A stretch of 10,859 nucleotides of DNA. It comes from a candidate division WS6 bacterium GW2011_GWC2_36_7. Its GTDB lineage: Bacteria > Patescibacteriota > Dojkabacteria > SC72. The first letter of the stretch is position 1. The number at the start of each line of letters is the position of its first letter. The notes beneath the pieces are model-generated. The model was given only the letters and a program-made list of their open reading frames with translations, was not told the DNA's origin and made no database searches. The translations under genes and the position numbers were made by a program. The stretch lies in contig LBSF01000013.1 of NCBI GenBank assembly GCA_000991805.1, forward strand, positions 2,551-13,409. Reading direction: 5' to 3'. This document shows, one piece after another, positions 601 through 10,689 of the stretch.

Positions 601-1116
601 ATGAAAAAGAAAGAAATAGTTTATGCGTTTATAGATAGCCAAAATCTTAATTTGGGTTTAGGAAATGATGTTTTTAAAAACGGGAAATTAAAATACAAGG
701 GCTGGAAGCTAGACTTCAGAAGATTGAGGGTGTATCTAAAGGAGAAATACAAGGTAGAGAAATGCTTTCTATTCATTGGTAATATCCCTGGGAATAGGCA
801 TTTGTATAAATATCTAAAAGATTCGGGTTATATATTAATTTTCAAACCAACACTTAGAATAGGAAAAGAAAAGATTAAAGGAAATGTAGATGCAGAGTTA
901 GTGCTCCATACGATGATTGAGATAAAGAATTTTCAAAAAGCCATAATAATATCGGGTGATGGTGATTTCTATTGTCTTGTTAAATATCTTAAAGAAAAGG
1001 GGAAGCTAGGATATCTTTTAATACCAAATAATTTTGCATATTCAAGTTTATATTCAGTATTTAAAGAAGATATTAGATTCTTAAATGATTTGAATAATAA
1101 ACTTGGAAGAAAGTAA
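601..1116 (+). CDS. NYN-domain (PIN-like, LabA/DUF88-type) putative ribonuclease
   Basis: The 171-residue protein has the order of acidic motifs typical of NYN domains, the PIN-like fold found in bacterial LabA/DUF88 proteins and eukaryotic RNases. They are FIDSQN near the N-terminus (D12, N15), NVDAEL in the middle (D97) and SGDGDF late (D120, D122), followed by a LVKYLKEKGK helix. Such proteins are expected to be metal-dependent ribonucleases. A second conserved Asp normally six residues after D97 is His103 here, so activity may be altered. I chose ATG 601 rather than an in-frame TTG at 568 because FIDSQN then sits at the normal distance from the start. The gene is divergent from the M23 peptidase and precedes an unknown gene on the same strand. 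Substrate is unknown. Confidence 0.8.
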   Translation: MKKKEIVYAFIDSQNLNLGLGNDVFKNGKLKYKGWKLDFRRLRVYLKEKYKVEKCFLFIGNIPGNRHLYKYLKDSGYILIFKPTLRIGKEKIKGNVDAELVLHTMIEIKNFQKAIIISGDGDFYCLVKYLKEKGKLGYLLIPNNFAYSSLYSVFKEDIRFLNDLNNKLGRK

Positions 1117-1721: not shown

Positions 1722-2354
1722 ATGTTAGATGAAAGTATTTTAAACGATTTTAACAAACTTCAAAATATACATGGTGAACCTACCTTAGATTCCATAATCA
1801 GTGGTGGTCAATATATAAACCCCGATATATGCTTCATCTTCATGAACCCCACTGGCCGTAATATTGCTGCTGAGAAATTATGGACATCAATTAAATCTCC
1901 TTGGTTAGGTACAAAGAATGTATGGAATATATTTTTCAAATTAAATATGTTAGATGAAGAGATATATATAGAGATATTAAAAAGAAAACCAATGGAATGG
2001 GACTATGATTTTGCAAATAGGGTGTATGAGGATATTACTAATAGAGGGATATATATAACCAATTTGGCGAAATGTACGCAATTAGATGCTAGACCATTAC
2101 CTAACAAGGTGTTTAAAGAATATTTAGATCTGTTATTTAAAGAATTAGATATGGTTAAACCTAAGAAGATTGTTACATTTGGAAATCAAGTGAGTAGTAT
2201 ATTCTTAGATACAAATATATCTGTATCTAAGGATAGGAAGAAGATATTTATGAAAAATAATATTCCTACATTGCCTGTATATTATCCTGTGGGTCAGGGT
2301 AGAAGGAATATGGATTTAGCGGTAGAGGATATTGAGTGGTTTATGAATAATTAG
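1722..2354 (+). CDS. Uracil-DNA glycosylase superfamily-like protein
   Basis: The 210-residue protein has the layout of the UDG superfamily, whose members excise damaged bases such as uracil from DNA. DICFIFMNPTGRN (35-47) matches motif 1 of the GxNPG type, with N42 as the candidate water-activating residue. IYITNLAKC (110-118) matches the next core strand. PKKIVTFGNQV (147-157) matches the strand before the late motif. LPVYYPVGQGRR (184-195) occupies the place of the usual HPSxxR loop, but with Tyr188 where His is expected. The core spacing fits the fold; the changed motif makes substrate or even activity uncertain. It starts 2 nt after the unknown gene. Its TAG interleaves with the TAA of the convergent regulator gene (sequence TTAG), leaving no room for a terminator. 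Confidence 0.65.
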   Translation: MLDESILNDFNKLQNIHGEPTLDSIISGGQYINPDICFIFMNPTGRNIAAEKLWTSIKSPWLGTKNVWNIFFKLNMLDEEIYIEILKRKPMEWDYDFANRVYEDITNRGIYITNLAKCTQLDARPLPNKVFKEYLDLLFKELDMVKPKKIVTFGNQVSSIFLDTNISVSKDRKKIFMKNNIPTLPVYYPVGQGRRNMDLAVEDIEWFMNN

Positions 2355-3010
2355 AGAACATAATTAGAAATCTGAGAATATTCAGAATAGATTTCCCATT
2401 CCTTTCTTAGAATACACATATCAATTTCTTTCCACCTATTATCTAACTTTTCTATCTCTTCGATACTTAGTAACTTCATATTGGGTTGTAAATTTCCAAG
2501 CTGTTTCAATTTAACATTGTAAACAACAAAGGCATCACTAAATATTAGCTTTCCTTCCGTGTTCGTTACATCCTTCATATGCAAAGATTCGAAAACAGGT
2601 GGCTCATATGTAAAACCAGTTCCTAATTCTTCATTTAAAATTCTTTCAAATTCATTTTGTAATTTCGCATTGTGATATGGTCTCCCATTAGGAAGATTAA
2701 AATATGGTTCTTTAGCATTATCATGACTCTTGAAAATGTATTTCCCATCATATTCACATATAAACCCTACGACCAAAGGTTTTGGTATTAACTCTGACAA
2801 ATTATTAATATCAAATTCTTGAGTCTTCTTTATTCCATCAAATGTAACTGTATATACATCTCCAACCTTTGAGATTAATCCCAAGCTTTGTAATTGTTTA
2901 AGGTGGAATACTACATTATCGTCCGAATCAAATCCTTCAGTCAAAGTTGAATATTTCTGATTATTTTCTTTTATTAATCTTTTGATTAATAGCTTTTGTA
3001 TTGTATGCAT
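2351..3010 (-). CDS. Transcriptional regulator: N-terminal winged helix plus C-terminal pseudo-Nudix domain
   Basis: Residues 1-65 form a winged helix: helices around 3-14 and 31-43, then LGLISKVGDVYTVTFDG, the usual wing of ArsR/MarR-like folds. Residues about 76-215 form a Nudix domain. Its box (109-131) keeps exact GX5EX7REUXEEXGU spacing, G109, R123, E127, E128 and G130. However, the Glu at +6 is Ala115 and the Glu of RE is Ile124. Reduced or absent hydrolysis is likely, as in Nudix-based sensors. NrtR repressors join the same domains in the opposite order and respond to ADP-ribose; a nucleotide-diphosphate ligand here is inference. ATG 3010 lies 5 nt after a TATAAT. A perfect inverted repeat lies between it and the divergent VOC operon, so autoregulation is likely. 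The 3' end overlaps the UDG-like gene. Confidence 0.75.
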   Translation of the reverse strand: MHTIQKLLIKRLIKENNQKYSTLTEGFDSDDNVVFHLKQLQSLGLISKVGDVYTVTFDGIKKTQEFDINNLSELIPKPLVVGFICEYDGKYIFKSHDNAKEPYFNLPNGRPYHNAKLQNEFERILNEELGTGFTYEPPVFESLHMKDVTNTEGKLIFSDAFVVYNVKLKQLGNLQPNMKLLSIEEIEKLDNRWKEIDMCILRKEWEIYSEYSQISNYVL

Positions 3011-3015
3011 GGTTA

Positions 3016-3021
3016 ATTATA
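3016..3021 (-). promoter_or_regulatory. -10 box (TATAAT) of the regulator gene
   Basis: A perfect TATAAT on the minus strand sits 5 nt before ATG 3010, the same arrangement as at the M23 gene, predicting a leaderless transcript. The region where a -35 would fall (3039-3044) lies inside the inverted repeat at 3027-3046, so a bound protein would block RNA polymerase. Confidence 0.55.
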
Positions 3022-3026
3022 CATTT

Positions 3027-3046
3027 TAGTGTACAGAACTACACTA
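3027..3046. promoter_or_regulatory. Candidate operator: perfect 7+6+7 inverted repeat
   Basis: TAGTGTA, six bases, then TACACTA. The arms are perfect and include G/C bases, unlike random AT palindromes. The size suits a dimeric winged-helix repressor. It lies in the 91-bp divergent region between the regulator and the VOC-VOC-Nudix genes, next to the regulator's -10 box. It also lies upstream of a plus-strand TGTAAT (3055-3060) that could serve the VOC operon. Binding by the neighbouring regulator is inferred. Confidence 0.5.
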
Positions 3047-3101
3047 GAGAGATTTGTAATTGCAAGAGATAATTACAATATTAATTTTAATTATTAAGGT
3101 T

Positions 3102-3472
3102 ATGAAAATAGAAAAACTTTTTGCAATTTGTTTGCTTGTTGATAGTTATGAGAAATCTCTTAATTTCTATACTAATGTCTTAGGTTTTAAGGTTAATTCA
3201 AAAGATGGGGTATTTACAGATTTCAAATTAGGAGAAACTAGTTTAGCTATATTTCAAAAGATGGAGCAGAGGGTATGTTTCCAAAGAAATATATGAAGGT
3301 AGGTGGGAGTGCGGTTATAGCTTTCCAGGTTTCTAATTTAGAAAAGTTTTGCAAGAGTATTGAGGAAAAGAACGTAACGATATTCGAAGGACCAAAAACT
3401 ACTGAATGGGGACAAAGGGTTGCATATATACAAGATCCAGATTCTAATATTATTGAGATATCTGAGAGCTAA
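3102..3472 (+). pseudogene. VOC-superfamily (glyoxalase/bleomycin-resistance fold) protein, frameshifted
   Basis: Two overlapping frames together encode one VOC protein. ATG 3102, with AAGG 6 nt upstream, gives MKIEKLFAICLLVDSYEKSL and NFYTNVLGFKV, the classic first module. This frame degenerates after FQK at 3258. The other frame continues with KDGAEGMFPKKYM and ends with AYIQDPDSNIIEISES, the classic VOC C-terminus with the metal-ligand Glu. Adding one A to the A-run at 3256-3259 restores a 123-residue protein, the same length as the next gene. VOC proteins include glyoxalases, thiol transferases and drug-binding resistance proteins; the usual first-strand His is absent, so the reaction is unknown. 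The break may be a sequencing error in a homopolymer or a true mutation. First gene of the operon divergent from the regulator. Confidence 0.8.
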
Positions 3473-3481
3473 GAGTAAAAT

Positions 3482-3507
3482 TGAATATATAATCTAATAT
3501 ATATTCA
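3482..3507. repeat. Perfect 10-bp inverted repeat with 6-nt spacer before the second VOC gene
   Basis: TGAATATATA, six bases (ATCTAA), then its exact complement, ending one base before ATG 3509. A perfect TATAAT (3488-3493) lies inside it. It could be an operator over an internal promoter, or an RNA hairpin covering the translation start. Being almost all A/T, chance is more likely than for the 3027 repeat. Confidence 0.4.
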
Positions 3508-3508
3508 T

Positions 3509-3880
3509 ATGTATAACAGCATCTCTGCAATATTAATATGGTCTGAAGATTACAAAAAATTAGCAGACTGGTACCAAGAGAAGTTTGGTTTTGAAACTAT
3601 TGAAGAATTAAATCATCCAGATGATACAGGTAGAGCATTAAGAGTAGGTACTTCGTATCTATGGATTGGTAGACATTCAGAGGTACATGGTAAGAACCAG
3701 GATCCATTTAGAATCATGTTTAATATTGCTGTTGATTCAGTAGAGACAAGTTTTAAAGATTTACAAAGTAAGGGTGTTCGTTTCATTGCTGAACCATTTA
3801 AAGCTCCGTTATCTGAGAAATACTTTGCAACTATGGAAGATCTTGATGGTAACACAGTGCAATTAATAGGACAAAAATAA
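3509..3880 (+). CDS. VOC-superfamily (glyoxalase-fold) protein
   Basis: The 123-residue, two-module VOC protein begins with ISAILIWSEDYKKLADWYQEKFGFE, the usual strand and helix with the FYxxxLGF-like signature. The second module starts at FRIMFNIAVDSVETSFKDLQSKG, and the protein closes with MEDLDGNTVQLIG, the standard D-x-DGN ending. The first-strand His and the C-terminal Glu used as metal ligands in many VOC enzymes are not present (Gln replaces Glu). It may bind a ligand without metal catalysis, as drug-sequestering family members do. It follows the frameshifted VOC gene after 36 nt containing a perfect inverted repeat, and precedes the Nudix gene by 3 nt. Substrate unknown. Confidence 0.85.
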   Translation: MYNSISAILIWSEDYKKLADWYQEKFGFETIEELNHPDDTGRALRVGTSYLWIGRHSEVHGKNQDPFRIMFNIAVDSVETSFKDLQSKGVRFIAEPFKAPLSEKYFATMEDLDGNTVQLIGQK

Positions 3881-3883
3881 CAG

Positions 3884-4459
3884 ATGGATTCTAATCAGAA
3901 GCTAAGAGAGGAACTCCAGAAATATAAACCATATAATGCTCAAGAAGTTAAGGATAAGGAAGTAATGCTTAAATATTTTGAAGTGTTTGACGATGTATTA
4001 ACAAGGAATAACGAAATAGCACACTTTTCCAGCTCTGCTTTTGTTTTAAATAAAGAAAGAAACAAGATACTACTGGTTTTTCATAATATTCTGAATTCTT
4101 GGAATTTTGAAGGTGGTCGTGCCGATGGAGATGCCGATTTGCTTGGTGTTGCAATTAAGGAAGTTAAAGAAGAAACGGGTTTAAAAAACGTTATTCCGTT
4201 AACAAAAGATTTCTTTACGATAAATATCTTGCCTGTATCTCAACATACGAGAAAAGGGAGAGAAGTCTCCGCACATCTACACCTCAATGTAGCATACGTC
4301 TTTGAGGCTGACGAGAAAGAACCCATACAGATAAATGAGGATGAGAATAGTGGTGTTAAATGGGTTGATATTAAAGATTTCTTAGAGATCACAAATAACT
4401 CTCGTACCTACGCAAAGGGATTAGCAAAAATGAAAGACGAAGAATTTCTGCCTAAGTAA
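3884..4459 (+). CDS. Nudix hydrolase
   Basis: The 191-residue protein carries a Nudix box at 78-100 (GGRADGDADLL followed by KEVKEETGL). E93, E96 and E97 supply the usual Mg-binding acids; Lys92 replaces the common Arg. The GG-x-ADG-x-x-DLL form is shared by a Nudix subgroup typically given as GGHADG. Nudix enzymes hydrolyse nucleoside diphosphates linked to another group, such as ADP-ribose or damaged NTPs; the substrate here cannot be read from sequence. An N-terminal helical extension (1-45) precedes the domain. It starts 3 nt after the second VOC gene, so it is cotranscribed. Its 3' end lies 9 nt from the convergent NYN gene. An active enzyme paired with a divergent degenerate-Nudix regulator suggests a shared ligand. 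Confidence 0.88.
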   Translation: MDSNQKLREELQKYKPYNAQEVKDKEVMLKYFEVFDDVLTRNNEIAHFSSSAFVLNKERNKILLVFHNILNSWNFEGGRADGDADLLGVAIKEVKEETGLKNVIPLTKDFFTINILPVSQHTRKGREVSAHLHLNVAYVFEADEKEPIQINEDENSGVKWVDIKDFLEITNNSRTYAKGLAKMKDEEFLPK

Positions 4460-4468
4460 GCTATATAG

Positions 4469-5002
4469 TCAAAACAAATAAAATTCGTCTAGATCTCTTC
4501 TTGATAATAAGACATAATCAGAGCAGATATTAATTAATGCTCTACTTGGTTTGTGCTTGAAACCAACATATGTAACTTGTTTTCCAAGTTTCTGTACCTG
4601 TTTAATGGCAGGTATAAGGTCTGTGTCTGATGAAATTAAAATTATTCTATCAATCCTGTTTTCGTAACTATTGATTAGCATATCAACAGCTATCTGTATG
4701 TCGACACCCTTCTCATGCATAACCCCATTACTCTCTAGCAAATATCCCAGAGAATACTTAATATTTTGTGATGAAAGATATTTAAAAAGTTTTTGTTGCT
4801 TGGCATGCAACTTTCTTGTATGAAAATCTGTTTTAGTTCTTACAGCACCAATATAGTAGATGGTCGAAATATTTTTGTGTTTGGCTGCAATATGTGTTGT
4901 GAACTTTTGGAAATTGAAATTCAGTTGATTATCTAAACCGAGATCTTTCAGCTTAAAGTAGAAATTGCTTTCATCAATTAGAATTACGGATGTTTGGGGC
5001 AT
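4469..5002 (-). CDS. NYN-domain (LabA/DUF88-like) putative ribonuclease
   Basis: The 177-residue protein has complete NYN acidic motifs: VILIDESN (D10, N13), KGVDIQIAVD (D101, D107) and ISSDTDLIPAI (D126, D128), then a GKQVTYVGF strand. These residues bind metal in PIN-like nucleases. It belongs to the same family as the 601 gene but is clearly divergent, and it keeps the Asp that the other has changed to His, so it is the better candidate for an active enzyme. I chose ATG 5002. A TTG at 5053 would add 17 residues, but it overlaps the -10 region of a strong promoter, and that stretch encodes a hairpin instead. It ends in TGA 9 nt from the Nudix gene, showing TGA is a stop here. RNA target unknown. 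Confidence 0.8.
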   Translation of the reverse strand: MPQTSVILIDESNFYFKLKDLGLDNQLNFNFQKFTTHIAAKHKNISTIYYIGAVRTKTDFHTRKLHAKQQKLFKYLSSQNIKYSLGYLLESNGVMHEKGVDIQIAVDMLINSYENRIDRIILISSDTDLIPAIKQVQKLGKQVTYVGFKHKPSRALINICSDYVLLSRRDLDEFYLF

Positions 5003-5011
5003 AAGAAAATT

Positions 5012-5041
5012 GCCTACAAACAACCATGGGTTCTTGTAGGC
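5012..5041 (-). promoter_or_regulatory. 5'-leader hairpin before the second NYN gene (possible attenuator)
   Basis: Perfect 8-bp arms GCCTACAA (5012-5019) and TTGTAGGC (5034-5041) enclose an inner 4-bp AACC/GGTT stem with a three-base loop. On the minus strand the stem is followed by AATTTTCTT and then ATG 5002. It could be a 5' stabilising hairpin, an attenuator, or the gatA terminator reused as a leader; the U-run is short. Confidence 0.5.
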
Positions 5042-5053
5042 GGGTTCACTCAA

Positions 5054-5082
5054 ATTATATCAACAAGGGTATTCCTTGTAAA
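5054..5082 (-). promoter_or_regulatory. Sigma-70-type promoter of the second NYN gene
   Basis: -35 TTTACA (5082-5077, 5 of 6), exactly 17 bp spacer, -10 TATAAT (5059-5054, perfect), on the minus strand. Predicted transcription start is near 5047, giving a leader of about 45 nt that contains the 5012-5041 hairpin. This is the best complete promoter in the window. Confidence 0.7.
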
Positions 5083-5118
5083 TATATTTATACCATCTAA
5101 ATATGAAATTTCTTTGAA

Positions 5119-6561
5119 CTAGAGATTTAGTATTAGTCTTCCAACCCCATCTTCAACACCTTGTCCAAGATGTAACAATGTTTGTTCATCAAAATGTTTT
5201 CCTATGAACTGTATACCAGTAGGCATACCATTAGACAAACCAGAAGGAACTGTTAATCCAGGTAATCCAACCTCAGAACTACCTTCTGCTAATACATCAG
5301 CAATTTCTCCAAACAATGGATTGTCTGCATCCTTGTCTCTTAACGCAACAGAAGGAGTAGTAGGAGCCACTATAGCATCATATTTACCCAATACATTCTC
5401 TAAATCTTCTCGTATTAACTGTCTAACCTGTTCTGATTTTCTAAAGTATTCATCTGCATATCCAGCAGAGAGAGAGAATGTTCCAGTCATTATTCTTCTC
5501 TTGGCTTCTTCTCCAAATCCTTCTCCTCTAGTAGATTCATAGAATATTTTTACATTTTCATTCTTACTTCCTTCTAAACCATATCTAGTACCATCGTATC
5601 TAGCTAAGTTTGAGGATACTTCGCTCCTACAAGTGATGGTATACACGGCTATACCATACTTGGGATCCATAATGTTTACCTCTTCCACTATGGCACCTAA
5701 ATTTCTTAATATATTTACTGAATTTTCAAAATTCTTTCTAACACCTTCTTCAATATCTAAGTCTAGATATTCTTTTGGTAATGCTAATCTCATTCCCTTA
5801 ATCTTATTCACATCCAACTGTGCTAAATAGTCCTGGATTGGGAGTTTTGAAGATGTAAAATCATGTGGATCATATCCTGCGATAATGCCAAGCATATATG
5901 CTGCATCCTTTACTGTTTTAACTATTGGTCCTGGACAATCCAAGGATGATCCCATTGCCAATACTCCATACCTTGGTACTCTTCCATATGTTGGTTTAAG
6001 TCCTACAGTTCCACACCACGAGGATGGTAATCTGATGGATCCTGCGGTTTCTGTCCCTAGAGAGCCTGTACATAGGTCTGCAGCTATTGCAGTAGCAGAA
6101 CCTCCACTTGATCCTCCAGGTAGTGTTTCTTTGTTCCAAGGGTTTCTAGTAGGTCCATAGTAGGATGTAATGGTTGATGATCCGTGACAGAACTGATCGA
6201 GATTGGTTTTACCAAGGATTATAGCTTCTTCATTTAGTATTCTCTTAGTTACAGTTGATTCATATACTGGGGTATATCCATCTAATATGTGTGATGCGCA
6301 TGTGGTTAATATATCTTTAGTTGAGAATACATCTTTAACAGCAATTGGTATACCAGCTAGTTTTTTGTCTTTTAATGTTTCAAAGTTGTTGTCAAAATCT
6401 TCTGCTTTCTTTAATGCATTTTCAGCGTCTACTGTAATGAATGCATTGAGTTCTTCATCTAACTTGCTGATTCTTTGGAGATAGTAATTAGTTACTTCTT
6501 TAGCAGATATATTTTTTGCGAGGAGTTTTTCTCTGAGTTCTGTAATGCTAAGATTTTCCAC
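5119..6561 (-). CDS. gatA: Aspartyl/glutamyl-tRNA(Asn/Gln) amidotransferase subunit A
   Basis: GatA is the amidase of the GatCAB complex, which releases ammonia from Gln or Asn to amidate Glu-tRNA(Gln) and Asp-tRNA(Asn) in the cytoplasm. The 480 residues match the family's normal length. The amidase-signature triad is clear: K76 in IPIAVKD, S152 in PGGSSGGSA and S175 in TETAGSIRLPSS. The block TVGLKPTYGRVPRYGV follows, and the C-terminus has LPGLTVPSGLSNGMPTGIQFIG, as in true GatA. The start is GTG 6561, giving the usual short N-terminal helix MENLSITELREKL; a TATATT lies at 6580-6575 on the same strand. gatB and gatC are not in this window. It is a housekeeping gene bordering the accessory block. 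Confidence 0.95.
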   Translation of the reverse strand: MENLSITELREKLLAKNISAKEVTNYYLQRISKLDEELNAFITVDAENALKKAEDFDNNFETLKDKKLAGIPIAVKDVFSTKDILTTCASHILDGYTPVYESTVTKRILNEEAIILGKTNLDQFCHGSSTITSYYGPTRNPWNKETLPGGSSGGSATAIAADLCTGSLGTETAGSIRLPSSWCGTVGLKPTYGRVPRYGVLAMGSSLDCPGPIVKTVKDAAYMLGIIAGYDPHDFTSSKLPIQDYLAQLDVNKIKGMRLALPKEYLDLDIEEGVRKNFENSVNILRNLGAIVEEVNIMDPKYGIAVYTITCRSEVSSNLARYDGTRYGLEGSKNENVKIFYESTRGEGFGEEAKRRIMTGTFSLSAGYADEYFRKSEQVRQLIREDLENVLGKYDAIVAPTTPSVALRDKDADNPLFGEIADVLAEGSSEVGLPGLTVPSGLSNGMPTGIQFIGKHFDEQTLLHLGQGVEDGVGRLILNL

Positions 6562-7260: not shown

Positions 7261-10200
7261 CTATTTTATATTATTCTCTTTGTCTTCCTCTTCCCTTCTT
7301 CTTCTAGCTATTAAGAAGATTATGAAGGAGAGTAGTGTTGCTCCACCTAGTGCATATACCCACCATGGGATTGGTTTCCTTGTGGATTCCTCTTGAGTGG
7401 AATCTTCTGCACCTTTAACTTCCTCTTTGGTTACAACAGGTGAGGTAGTTTCTTCTTCAGTGGTTTGTGCTCCTTGTACTGCTTCTGGTGTTAAAGTTGC
7501 TACTGTTGCTGCACCTCTTACTGCTTGCTGAGGTACTGCTGCAACTACTACACTTGATGCATATGGATCATTTCCTTCAACTATTGTATTGGAGTCACTT
7601 CTATTTCCAGCTGTATCTACTACATAGTATGTGAAGGTATGTGTTCCTACGCTTAATGTATTGATTAAAGCCGTTATATCCCAACTGTATCCTGTTCCAA
7701 ACAATGGTAAGCATGTTTGGGTGTTTGTATCTATTACATAACAGACTTGAGATAGCTCGGTGTTATCACTTAATGCTAGGGATCTTGGTGTTGTGTCTCC
7801 TGTTTGGAAGGAAAGAGCTGAAAGAACTTGTGCTTCTGGGTTGGTTTTATCTATCTTCACTTCATCAGATGTTTGTACTGCTTCTAAATTACCCGCCATA
7901 TCTTCAGAGTAGAAGGTTATTGTATTCAACCCTTCTGTAGATACAATTACTGTATTTCCTTCTTGTTCAGTTCCACCATTTAATGAATAGTAGGTTCTGT
8001 AACAACCACTACCATCAGTATCGGTACAAGCTAAGGTTACTGTTACGTCAGTATTGTGCCAGAGAAAGTCTATACCTGATGCGGTGGTTACTGGAGTTGT
8101 TTTGTCATATGTAATTGTATATGGCTCACTTTCAGGACTTTCATTACCTGCCATATCTATAGTTTTTACATAGATAACATATTTACCTTCGCCATGTCCA
8201 AATGAACCAGATCTAGTATGTGGATTTCCACCAGATACCCAGTTTGAAGTCCAATCAATGTCTGGAGTTCCATCTGCAGGGGTGAAAATGTATCTAATAC
8301 TGTATGCAGCTATTCCTGCACCTGTGCTATTTACATATGCTGTGTCATCTCCACCTGTCCAATTTACTGTTATCGCATTTACATTAGTAAATGCCGTAGT
8401 GTTTGTTATCACGGGCTTTGATGGCGCGGTTGTATCATAGTAGTAGTGTACCCATGTACTCCATGCTCCTTCATTTCCTGCATTATCAAATGCTTGTACT
8501 CTGAAGCTTACACCACCTTGTTCGTTACTATTTGGAATATGGTTTCTTTGGCTTGCTGTTGTTGTTCTGTATGGTGCACCTGGGAATGTATGACCATCAT
8601 CATATACATATTCTACTTTGTATGATGCTATTCCAGATACATCTGTTGCATTTGTCCAATCGTTTAGAATAGGGGTGCTCTTGAAGTATTGCTCAGATGT
8701 AGGAGATACAATTGAAGGTGTTGTAGGTGCTGTTGTATCTATTATGAACGGAATAGAGTGTGTTGTTGATGTTATATTTCCAACCTTGTCTACTGTTCTG
8801 ATATTGAAATACCATGTACCATCTGAAAGAGAACGACTAGTTATGTGTGTAGCATCTGCTGGTAACCAGTTAAAGAACCCTATTGATGGAGTTTCTGGTG
8901 CATGAGTGAATGAGTAGAAATATCCTGCGACACCACTTAATTCATCATTAGCTCCGCTAAAGACCATATCGATAGTTCTATCTCTATTTGGTGCTGATGT
9001 GTGTGATGTTGAACTTACTGCTGGATCTATTGGGTCTTCATTGTCCCATATGAATGAATCTGCAATTCCAATTCCAGGAAAATCTTGTACATGATCCCAA
9101 GCTAATGGGGTTACTGTGTATTGAACGCCATTGCTCATTGATGGAAGAGAGTTGGTAAGTACCCAGTGACTTGTTCCCAGAACATCTTGAGTCCCTGGCA
9201 AGTATGTCCAGGAGCTATTACCTGTCCAATATTTACCATCACTGCTTCTTCTCATAGTTAATTTAACATCAGAGATTCTGCTTACAGTATCAGAAGCTGT
9301 TCCATGAATGAATGGTAAGCTATTAGGTCCGTAGTATTCGTTAGCTATCATTGCTTCAGATTGAGGAAGGGCTTTGTCTACTTTTCTTTCAACGACCGTT
9401 GAAGTCTTGGTATTCCCAGCTTTGTCATTAACCCTAACTCTAATATCTAGACTTTGGTTGTCATACAATATGAAGCTTGGTACTCCAAATCTACATTTAT
9501 CATTCATAAACATACCAGGAGTCCAAGTTGTGCCATTAAGTGTATATTCACAGGTTGATCCTTTTATTCCACTTAATGAATCATCTGCTCTGACAGAAAT
9601 TGTAAATCCATAGTAACCATTTACATATCTACTGAGGTAATCTTCTTCAATGTTTATATTCCCAAATGTTGGTCTTGTTGTATCGTATACAATTCTATTC
9701 ATTCGTGGGCTATGTTCTGTGTTACCAGCTTGATCTGTTGCTTCTGCCTTTACATCAAAAGTTCCTTGATATGGAGGTGTCCATGTCTTTGACCAGTTAA
9801 ATGTTGAGCTGTTAGATGTGTTTGTTTGGGTTTCAATCAAAATCCAATTTGAAGAATTTGTATTTTTGTAATACAAGTTTACCCCAGTAACACCATTTAC
9901 ATCATTTGAGACTCCTTGCAAGAGAATACTTGAGTTATGGTATGTGTTAGCTTGATTTTGAGTGAATTGGGATACTGGTGCGGTTGTATCTACAGTAAAC
10001 TTTAATCCTAATACATCTCTAAATTGATTTATTGTAGGGATATCCTTTCTAGTAGCATTATCATATACCTGATGTGTCATGTAGTATGTTCCTTCTGGTA
10101 GGGTAGATACACAATCTGTAAACTGTCTTTGTGTAGTTAATGTGAATGGATTCCCAGAAAGTTCGACAAGATTTGGATTTTGTCTCCAGCTACAATATGC

Positions 10201-10689
10201 TTGCTTTCCATTCTGTGAAAATGCAAATGATCCGTTATCCTGAGCTTGGAAGATTACAAATGAATCCCAATATAGCTCCGAGGATGGGGTAGAGTCAGTA
10301 TATGTTCCTGTGAAGGATAGTTGACTGACACTTTGTACAAATGCTTGAGCTCCTAGTACTGCTGATCCATTTTTGTAATGTATATATGTTGCTGTTGGTG
10401 CATTAGTATCTATCGTTATAGATTGTGTTGTCGTTTTGCTATTCCCAACATCATCAGTTGCTACAATTTGCATGTCATATGTTCCATCTGGAACAATATT
10501 TGTTACATTTGCTTCCCAAGCGCTTCCATTGATTACGGCATTGTATGTTACTGAGTTTATAGTAAGAGTTACACTTGATGTATCTGCACTTGCTATTCCT
10601 CCAATGATAGTTGGTGTGTTGTAGTTTGTGACAAATTTATTAACTACTGAGCTATTTGGATATTTTATTCCTGTTGTAGTTACATCTGC
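7261..10689 (-). CDS. Giant multi-Ig-like-domain surface protein with C-terminal membrane anchor, 5' end missing
   Basis: Numbering runs from an internal ATG at 10473. Nine linker motifs of the type D(T/K)TxP occur at residues 22, 162, 264, 366, 477, 579, 680, 790 and 875. Most are preceded about ten residues earlier by a D-x-(A/V)-GN motif. This marks tandem Ig-like/beta-sandwich modules of mostly 101-111 residues. The C-terminus has an acidic Thr/Glu linker (about 1003-1034), a membrane span WWVYALGGATLLSFIIFLIA (1037-1056), then RRRR and a short charged tail: a typical stop-transfer anchor. The Ig repeats are thus outside the cell, probably for adhesion or cell contact. Coding continues upstream of 10473 in the same frame (NTPTIIGGIASAD..., WEANVTNIVPDGTYDM) with no ATG, GTG or TTG before an in-frame TGA at 10738-10740. 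The true N-terminus and signal peptide are absent; I end the gene where the coding strand appears to switch. Confidence 0.88.
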   Translation of the reverse strand, partial: ADVTTTGIKYPNSSVVNKFVTNYNTPTIIGGIASADTSSVTLTINSVTYNAVINGSAWEANVTNIVPDGTYDMQIVATDDVGNSKTTTQSITIDTNAPTATYIHYKNGSAVLGAQAFVQSVSQLSFTGTYTDSTPSSELYWDSFVIFQAQDNGSFAFSQNGKQAYCSWRQNPNLVELSGNPFTLTTQRQFTDCVSTLPEGTYYMTHQVYDNATRKDIPTINQFRDVLGLKFTVDTTAPVSQFTQNQANTYHNSSILLQGVSNDVNGVTGVNLYYKNTNSSNWILIETQTNTSNSSTFNWSKTWTPPYQGTFDVKAEATDQAGNTEHSPRMNRIVYDTTRPTFGNINIEEDYLSRYVNGYYGFTISVRADDSLSGIKGSTCEYTLNGTTWTPGMFMNDKCRFGVPSFILYDNQSLDIRVRVNDKAGNTKTSTVVERKVDKALPQSEAMIANEYYGPNSLPFIHGTASDTVSRISDVKLTMRRSSDGKYWTGNSSWTYLPGTQDVLGTSHWVLTNSLPSMSNGVQYTVTPLAWDHVQDFPGIGIADSFIWDNEDPIDPAVSSTSHTSAPNRDRTIDMVFSGANDELSGVAGYFYSFTHAPETPSIGFFNWLPADATHITSRSLSDGTWYFNIRTVDKVGNITSTTHSIPFIIDTTAPTTPSIVSPTSEQYFKSTPILNDWTNATDVSGIASYKVEYVYDDGHTFPGAPYRTTTASQRNHIPNSNEQGGVSFRVQAFDNAGNEGAWSTWVHYYYDTTAPSKPVITNTTAFTNVNAITVNWTGGDDTAYVNSTGAGIAAYSIRYIFTPADGTPDIDWTSNWVSGGNPHTRSGSFGHGEGKYVIYVKTIDMAGNESPESEPYTITYDKTTPVTTASGIDFLWHNTDVTVTLACTDTDGSGCYRTYYSLNGGTEQEGNTVIVSTEGLNTITFYSEDMAGNLEAVQTSDEVKIDKTNPEAQVLSALSFQTGDTTPRSLALSDNTELSQVCYVIDTNTQTCLPLFGTGYSWDITALINTLSVGTHTFTYYVVDTAGNRSDSNTIVEGNDPYASSVVVAAVPQQAVRGAATVATLTPEAVQGAQTTEEETTSPVVTKEEVKGAEDSTQEESTRKPIPWWVYALGGATLLSFIIFLIARRRREEEDKENNIK

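Follow-up and report, generated by a model that had tools for sequence, protein, structure and literature searches.

A probable Patescibacteria regulator with a winged helix and a pseudo-Nudix domain, and its predicted operator opposite a conserved VOC gene

The window analysed here, a stretch of 10,859 nucleotides from the candidate division WS6 bacterium GW2011_GWC2_36_7, encodes a predicted regulator with an N-terminal winged helix (wHTH) and a C-terminal Nudix domain whose catalytic box is degenerate (Table 1). We estimate a probability of roughly 70% that this protein acts locally, as a one-component transcription factor, through a dyad next to its own start codon, with the pseudo-Nudix domain as sensor, and that it represents a degenerate branch of a wHTH-Nudix family. 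The domains, the loss of the box and the conservation of both the dyad and the neighbouring gene are directly visible in the sequences. The constant partner of the regulator is the divergent VOC1 gene, not the Nudix enzyme of the window. To our knowledge little is known about gene regulation in ultra-small CPR bacteria.

Table 1. Features of the regulator locus (positions in the window)
Feature	Position	Strand	Basis
Regulator, N-terminal winged helix and C-terminal pseudo-Nudix, 219 aa	2351..3010	-	ORF, family matches, models
Winged-helix DNA-binding domain, about residues 1-67	2810..3010	-	L006 orthologue model, invariant residues
Pseudo-Nudix domain, about residues 78-217	2360..2779	-	
Degenerate Nudix box, about residues 109-131	2618..2686	-	strict box and RExxEE missing across clade
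Predicted operator TAGTGTACAGAACTACACTA	3027..3046	.	16/18 scored positions of TAGWGTAGTnnACTACACTA, regulator strand
Second inverted repeat TTGTAATT-9-AATTACAA	3054..3078	.	nothing beyond chance
VOC1, orthologue of conserved divergent VOC	3102..3472	+	frame broken near 3260
VOC2, Glyoxalase PF00903	3509..3880	+	E 5.8e-12
Nudix enzyme, 3fcm type	3884..4459	+	PF00293 2e-11; 3fcm_A E 9.4e-52; KExxEExG core kept

The initial annotation had read this gene as a winged helix fused to a degenerate Nudix domain, and family matches, structure models and the missing box all agree with it. Among 16 regulator family members HTH_45 was matched in 12 and NUDIX in eight (E up to 0.1); the winged helix of the window protein itself falls under Pfam's cut-off. 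Residues D31, N32, V34, F35, H36, K38 and L40 of the winged helix are invariant in the 16-row alignment, and the model of the L006 orthologue has an N-terminal part made up of H3-14, H20-23, H33-43 and a wing (E46-49/E52-55). Residues 1-30 of the window regulator model are of low confidence (block pLDDT 51-57). Fold searches with both models gave match lists filled by the Nudix domain, with no solved-structure match to the winged helix, and the window regulator used as a single-sequence query found no PDB relative. The strict Nudix box GX5EX7REUXEEXGU occurs in 0 of the 17 VOC-clade regulators, which group together in the tree with support 94/97 (43 rows, built without minus-strand loci), and RExxEE is missing from all 17 and also from L150. 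The Nudix domain of the window-type regulator has presumably lost its activity; because the EE pair of the box survives in part of the rows, including that of the window, residual activity may persist.

Impaired Nudix sensors joined to winged helices are known from the NrtR family (SoNrtR; BtAraR), which also uses a palindromic operator and has the Nudix-like domain at the N-terminus and the winged helix at the C-terminus (PMC4666351). The window regulator shares the impaired Nudix domain, the winged helix and a predicted palindromic operator with these proteins, but it differs from them in the operator itself, in having a VOC gene as conserved neighbor, and in having the winged helix first and the Nudix domain last, an order found in all 16 aligned rows and both structure models. 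That the order is opposite to NrtR had already been noted, and the further proposal of an arrangement independent of NrtR also looks correct, because the nearest relatives are wHTH-Nudix proteins of the same order, many of them box-intact. Members of the NrtR family control NAD or pentose genes, with ADP-ribose, NAD or a sugar as effector. It is very unlikely that the protein is a true NrtR-family regulator answering to ADP-ribose or NAD, given the opposite domain order and an NrtR score that is tied with those of many ordinary Nudix rows; inspection by eye of the genes directly flanking the 11 loci also turned up no NAD or pentose gene. A gene two ORFs downstream at L150 may be NAD synthetase-like, judging from its GISGGVDSA motif. 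The ADPr-linked conflict systems, predicted to give immunity by counteracting ADPr enzymes of viruses, likewise contain Nudix-HTH transcription factors, in which a Nudix sensor fused to an HTH serves as a one-component negative regulator (PMC9503650), whereas the clade of the window regulator neighbours VOC and repair-type genes. Our literature search of titles and abstract openings found no Nudix regulator with an N-terminal winged helix.

The inverted repeat previously noted between the divergent genes holds up in part. As sequence, the repeats are at chance level, with arms of at least 8 found in 107 of 1000 shuffles, so inverted repeats per se were rejected as evidence. The second repeat was also rejected as a conserved element, a similar repeat upstream of the regulator being seen in L002 only. 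What stands is the first repeat, a 20-bp dyad present at every one of the 11 distinct orthologous loci for which DNA is available (window, L002-L009, L066 and L150). Its distance from the start codon of the regulator ranges from -1 to 21 nt in the window, L003-L009 and L066, and it lies beside this codon at 10 of 11 loci overall; at L002 it is nearer the divergent gene (32 nt, as against 81 nt from the regulator start). The dyad of the window is placed 16 nt ahead of the regulator's start codon and 55 nt ahead of VOC1, a position that would allow action in both directions. The observed dyad score was reached in 0-6 of 1000 shuffles per locus at ten loci, with a consensus derived from the same loci that it scores. 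L150 alone is independent, and its dyad matches the consensus at 18/18 positions; it was the one new locus among five matches of a later regulator search whose criteria had been fixed in advance, the others (L147, L148, L149 and L015) being L003, L007, L009 and L005. The regulator start was set at a conserved MH. The frame of L003, L008 and L066 is open further upstream of this MH, and an earlier start there would therefore place the dyad inside the gene; the L008 and L066 dyads score 15/18 with the start codon in the slice and 11/18 without it. A palindromic predicted operator at its own locus is a feature of the VOC clade.

The end of the dyad falls within -1 to 21 nt of the start codon at 10 of the 11 VOC-clade loci, and the element could also be an RNA hairpin or a translational element rather than a protein operator. 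We consider this very unlikely, as the loop would be only 2 nt, the mismatched positions 4/17 are mostly A and A (7/10 and 8/10) and would not pair, and the L002 dyad is 81 nt from the regulator start. In addition, sites of at least 14/16 in the wider family described below lie 32-69 nt upstream in 17 of 18 cases in a first sample and 17 of 17 in a fresh one.

The protein operator that we favor appears to be confined to the locus. A scan of 12 genomes allowing up to 3 mismatches gave 0-2 matches per strand and genome, no more than the 0-3 of a reversed-pattern control, and a regulon beyond the locus was rejected on these counts. The same scan recovered the own-locus site in 7 of 9 regulator-bearing genomes, those of the L002 and L003 genomes being too weak to appear. 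Among the recovered ones, the two sites of G297 and that of G399 have 3 mismatches each, a level where controls also match. Of six inspected sites away from a regulator five are within ORFs and one (L080) is intergenic. A sigma-70 scan between the regulator and VOC1 found 2 candidates against a shuffle mean of 4.2, and we therefore claim no promoter positions.

On the other side of the dyad, the divergent VOC1-VOC2-Nudix cluster is present as originally described, with VOC1 frame-broken in the assembly by either decay or an assembly error. Both VOC genes match the Glyoxalase/bleomycin-resistance family, VOC1 as two pieces (3102-3260 and 3260-3469) that separately match Glyoxalase models and share 65% and 61% identity with the unbroken L004 VOC. 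VOC2 has 21-23% identity to the two VOCs matched at other loci. The first strand of the VOC proteins reads NCLLV/VCLLV in most rows, and the non-window rows retain the glutamate of a C-terminal WEIS/WEVS; these are candidate positions for the metal ligands of enzyme members. A VOC gene is divergent from the regulator at 9 of 11 loci, in several Patescibacteria lineages, with L002 and L008 having another divergent gene, and the genome of L008 has another copy of the regulator, L066, opposite a VOC. In the window it is this conserved partner, VOC1, whose frame is broken.

This neighborhood bears on a simpler explanation, in which the regulator controls its own gene alone and the VOC across from it merely travels along. 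At 10 of 11 loci the dyad is indeed closer to the start of the regulator, and no neighbour is broadly shared in the wider family. However, the recurrence of the divergent VOC orthologue across lineages argues against it, as does its distribution in the window's class, where the two best VOC matches (4.5e-45 and 4.2e-37) are in the two other regulator-bearing genomes and four regulator-less genomes match more weakly (1.1e-15 to 1.4e-21, a range shared by the window's own broken VOC1 pieces). We thus regard autoregulation alone as rather unlikely.

Less probable still is the design proposed in the initial annotation, a dead sensor and a live Nudix enzyme of one operon that share a ligand; in such a design the enzyme would clear the signal. 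The window's Nudix gene does close the divergent cluster (intergenic gaps of 36 and 3 nt) and, as the annotation held, most of its box is intact. A different Nudix gene is divergent in L008, and Nudix-like ORFs were seen by eye next to this gene and about 3 kb away in L005 and L007. Nevertheless, the window-type Nudix adjoins the regulator in the window alone, and at none of the other 10 loci, the view at L002 and L150 being limited by contig or locus ends. BLAST against ORFs within 3.5 kb at L002-L009 gave a single match of 23 residues (L005, E 0.005), and reading L066, and about 1.5 kb on each side at L150, revealed no such gene. Of the 85 genomes of the class just 6 hold this Nudix type (E<=1e-20), and among the three that carry a VOC-clade regulator only the window's own has it; the VOC facing L066 also speaks against a Nudix partner. 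The shared-ligand pair is thus unsupported, because the conserved partner is VOC1 and the Nudix is beside the regulator only in the window; what does recur among homologues is the divergent VOC and the dyad.

The VOC clade is homologous over both domains to a wider set of Patescibacteria wHTH-Nudix proteins (hhalign probability 99.8, E 9.3e-30, 203 columns). These match NUDIX plus HTH_45/DUF7347, have the same domain order and a length similar to the regulator, and appear in the sources mainly as NUDIX, or where named as 'NUDIX domain-containing protein' (Candidatus Dojkabacteria); the family is apparently large and little described. In contrast to the VOC clade, they often keep the strict box (25/45 and 28/30 in two samples), share no broadly conserved neighbour (the largest cluster of similar neighbours is 5) and, where a dyad is present, have it mostly 32-69 nt upstream. 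A related 20-bp dyad scoring at least 14/16 was found upstream in 18/44, in-gene in 0/44 and downstream in 0/43 members of the first sample (45 loci, less L052 with too short an upstream). With criteria set beforehand, fresh genomes gave 17/25, 0/25 and 0/25; this count includes a broken gene (L122) and leaves out 5 of 30 loci from genomes already seen, whose scores (13, 8, 11, 13 and 13) are all below 14. When 19 whole genomes, chosen mainly among those already having a good site, were scanned with up to 1 mismatch, 14 had a site and five gave none, 12 of the 14 having exactly one, just upstream of a family gene, while the reversed-pattern control gave 0 in all 19. Several of these genomes hold 2-4 family members yet one site only, and the other copies are therefore without this form of the dyad. 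An unrestricted search for 20-bp dyads in the 44 upstreams gave a weak signal, with 8/44 having at most 15/300 shuffles as good. Dyads with TAGT/ACTA-type outer half-sites near the gene's own start are thus found in the VOC clade at 11/11 loci, in its own variant, and in part of the wider family. Many wider-family members have no dyad.

DNA binding, dimerisation, the direction of control and ligand sensing we infer from sequence. A homodimer of the regulator would bind the dyad via the N-terminal winged helix and would act both ways, probably repressing its own gene and keeping the VOC operon down or switching it. The Nudix fold at the C-terminus, in which the RE glutamate and further positions of the box are lost, is most likely the ligand sensor. 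The signal would probably be nucleotide-like or a reactive damage product, because VOC, HhH-GPD DNA glycosylase, Nudix and SelR/MsrB-like genes accompany the VOC-clade regulators. As to origin, the regulator would be a degenerate branch of a family in which many relatives keep the box and have a related dyad in front of their own gene. Most likely, the wider family consists of Nudix proteins that control themselves, and in one of its branches catalytic residues were lost and a VOC damage-response gene was gained. A stronger version, for which we see somewhat less than an even chance, is that one polypeptide is both Nudix hydrolase and repressor of its own gene at a single genomic dyad, and that in one branch catalytic residues were lost, the operator shifted to the start codon and a dedicated switch for a VOC/DNA-repair damage response arose independently of NrtR. 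If true, this would be a path in which an enzyme regulates itself and the dead enzyme then regulates its neighbor, with a domain order opposite to NrtR. The two stages, box-intact proteins with their own dyad and box-degenerate ones facing a neighbor, form a series relevant to how metabolic enzymes become transcription factors, and as the regulator family comes with a likely operator the protein-DNA pair is directly testable.

A tandem triple of degenerate wHTH-Nudix genes in G402 (L065), with no VOC-clade operator (best 10-12/18) and no VOC seen across its 8.5-kb contig, was excluded from the counts.

The regulator was compared across 11 distinct orthologous loci with DNA, namely the window, L002-L009, L066 (a second copy in the genome of L008) and L150. 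The initial annotation had suggested looking for conserved neighbours around regulator homologues, and the constant partner is a VOC1 orthologue, which is divergent from the regulator at nine of these loci (the window, L003, L004, L005, L006, L007, L009, L066 and L150). The divergent gene is HhH-GPD-like at L002 (25.9 bits, slightly below the 26.2 cut-off), and at L008 it is another Nudix gene, not a VOC gene. The window-type Nudix gene is present in 6 of the 85 genomes of the window's class and adjoins the regulator only in the window, so that, with VOC at 9/11 loci, the pairing of a pseudo-Nudix regulator with a live Nudix enzyme that was initially proposed looks like a local addition. By eye, Nudix-like ORFs of different kinds can be recognized at a distance of ~3 kb in L005 and L007 and, in L008, next to the first Nudix gene. 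The window's own genome (568 kb in 57 contigs, 73% complete) has four NUDIX matches above cut-off, the window gene among them. VOC1 is not a single open frame in this assembly, reflecting either decay or an assembly error, and intact orthologues are present at other loci. The partner that is conserved elsewhere is frame-broken in the window, and a second, distant VOC gene and the Nudix gene come after it.

Coordinates of features in the window and at related loci
Feature	Locus	Position	Strand or orientation	Remarks
Regulator	window	2351-3010	(-)	ORF, 219 aa
Predicted operator	window	3027-3046		20 bp
UDG-superfamily gene	window	1722-2354	convergent with regulator	4-nt overlap at regulator's end
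VOC1	window	3102-3472	faces regulator	two pieces, searched separately, each match Glyoxalase models
VOC2	window	3509-3880	faces regulator	after VOC1
Nudix gene	window	3884-4459	faces regulator	after VOC2
NYN-domain gene	window	601-1116	(+)	
NYN-domain gene	window	4469-5002	(-)	
Long open frame	window	7261-10473	(-)	1070 aa
VOC and HhH-GPD-like gene	L095	97-3064		
VOC and HhH-GPD-like gene	L099	79-3259		
VOC and HhH-GPD-like gene	L096	1501-2861		
Tandem wHTH-Nudix genes	L065 (G402)	3284-5485		three genes, degenerate

Additional genes on the VOC side include an HhH-GPD gene in L003 and L006 (the closest PDB match of the L003 protein is an 8-oxoguanine-DNA-glycosylase, E 1.2e-11), a SelR/MsrB-like gene ~0.5 kb further on in L004, a peptidase S51 in L005, and a HAD hydrolase in L007 and, by resemblance, in L009 and L150. 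These partners suggest oxidant or electrophile damage as a candidate theme. The UDG-superfamily gene of the window may be part of this theme. Elsewhere in the class, VOC relatives follow a TetR-like gene in the company of genes for a deaminase and an HhH-GPD-like protein (L095 and, by resemblance, L099), or immediately precede a similar HhH-GPD-like gene that has no Pfam match (L096); the Pfam check covered the L095 glycosylase and deaminase and the L096 glycosylase-like gene. The operator was not found at L095, L096 or L099, where the best scores were 11-12/18. This suggests that VOC-glycosylase is a module placeable under different regulators. A zinc-ribbon-like protein is also encoded beside the TetR-like gene and deaminase near the VOC gene in L095 and L099.

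One inverted repeat between the divergent genes is conserved. Specifically, CTAGAGTAGTnAACTACACTA-like sequences stand before the regulator start codon (regulator orientation), and ten loci scored against TAGWGTAGTnnACTACACTA gave 14-18/18, values that shuffles equalled in 0 to 6 of 1000 cases; columns 1-3, 5-7, 14, 15 and 18 are identical in all ten. Assuming a start at the conserved MH (the frames of L003, L008 and L066 are open further upstream), nine of the ten scored loci have -1 to 21 nt between the end of the predicted operator and the regulator start. Its distance to the divergent start is 32-78 nt at the nine non-window loci and 55 nt in the window. On the regulator side the exception is L002, with a gap of 81 nt, and its site is 32 nt from the divergent gene. 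A scan of 12 genomes with up to three mismatches recovered the own-locus site in 7 of the 9 regulator-bearing genomes, missing the weaker sites of the L002 and L003 genomes, and gave six other places, all with three mismatches, which is the control level, and five of them within ORFs. Three predictions (operator, divergent VOC and no RExxEE) were fixed before 372 further genomes were searched; the one new orthologue, L150, has an 18/18 operator at 4 nt, a divergent VOC gene and no RExxEE.

The VOC-clade alignment also matches many lower-scoring Patescibacteria proteins, found in 115 of 379 phylum-sample genomes at E up to 0.001, a count in which many weak matches span the Nudix part only. Most of the proteins that were examined over their whole length have 205-275 aa, with the winged helix at the N-terminus and the Nudix domain at the C-terminus. 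The strict Nudix box is present in 25/45 and 28/30 proteins of two sets, and a profile comparison of the VOC clade with this wider family aligned both domains (E 9.3e-30). The wider-family profile matches 684 proteins; among the 120 matches listed, the given source names are NUDIX-type (one is unreadable) and three add 'predicted transcriptional regulator'. In the tree the VOC clade forms a single group (support 94/97, slightly below the tool's starred level), adjoined by the degenerate G402 triple. These three tandem genes at L065 lack the VOC-clade operator. At L112 and L116, wider-family genes with an intact or near-intact box are followed by genes beginning MPELPEVETI, a start that resembles that of Fpg/MutM.

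A related dyad is present in wider-family upstream regions. When scored at >=14/16, TASTNAARTNNAYTTNASTA occurs upstream in 18/44, in-gene in 0/44 and downstream in 0/43, with a consensus derived from these same loci. Repeating this with the criterion fixed, in previously unseen genomes, gave 17/25 upstream, 0/25 in-gene and 0/25 downstream, after five loci from already-seen genomes, all scoring <14, were set aside; the 30 proteins of this set share 42-91% identity (median 51) and are thus not fully independent. In a scan of 19 genomes, chosen mainly for a good site and allowing up to one mismatch, the site was present in 14. Twelve have exactly one, each directly upstream of a known family gene, G222 has two, G281 has four and five have none; a reversed-pattern control gave 0 in 19/19. 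Several of these genomes have 2-4 family members, and other copies therefore lack this form of the dyad.

On the simplest reading, the Nudix protein regulates itself: its winged helix would bind the protein's own promoter and the Nudix domain would sense a nucleotide-like signal, which box-intact members may also hydrolyse. In the VOC branch catalytic positions have been lost, which would leave a sensor, and because the dyad is located at the start codon within the divergent promoter, a single site could act on the regulator and VOC alike. PMC6800001 states that an NrtR represses its own gene, and PMC9503650 describes Nudix-HTH regulators as ADPr sensors. The initial view of an NrtR-like switch with reversed domains holds in that the regulator resembles NrtR/AraR, as presented in PMC4666351, in combining an impaired Nudix sensor, a winged helix and a palindrome; unlike them it does not have the defining domain order given there, and hence is not a member. 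No regulator with the reversed order (wHTH first, Nudix last) was found in the literature searched by title and abstract start.

Two NYN-domain genes also flank the window locus, one on each side. By eye, the long open frame further along has many similar repeats and a membrane-anchor-like C-terminus, and its product is probably a surface protein.
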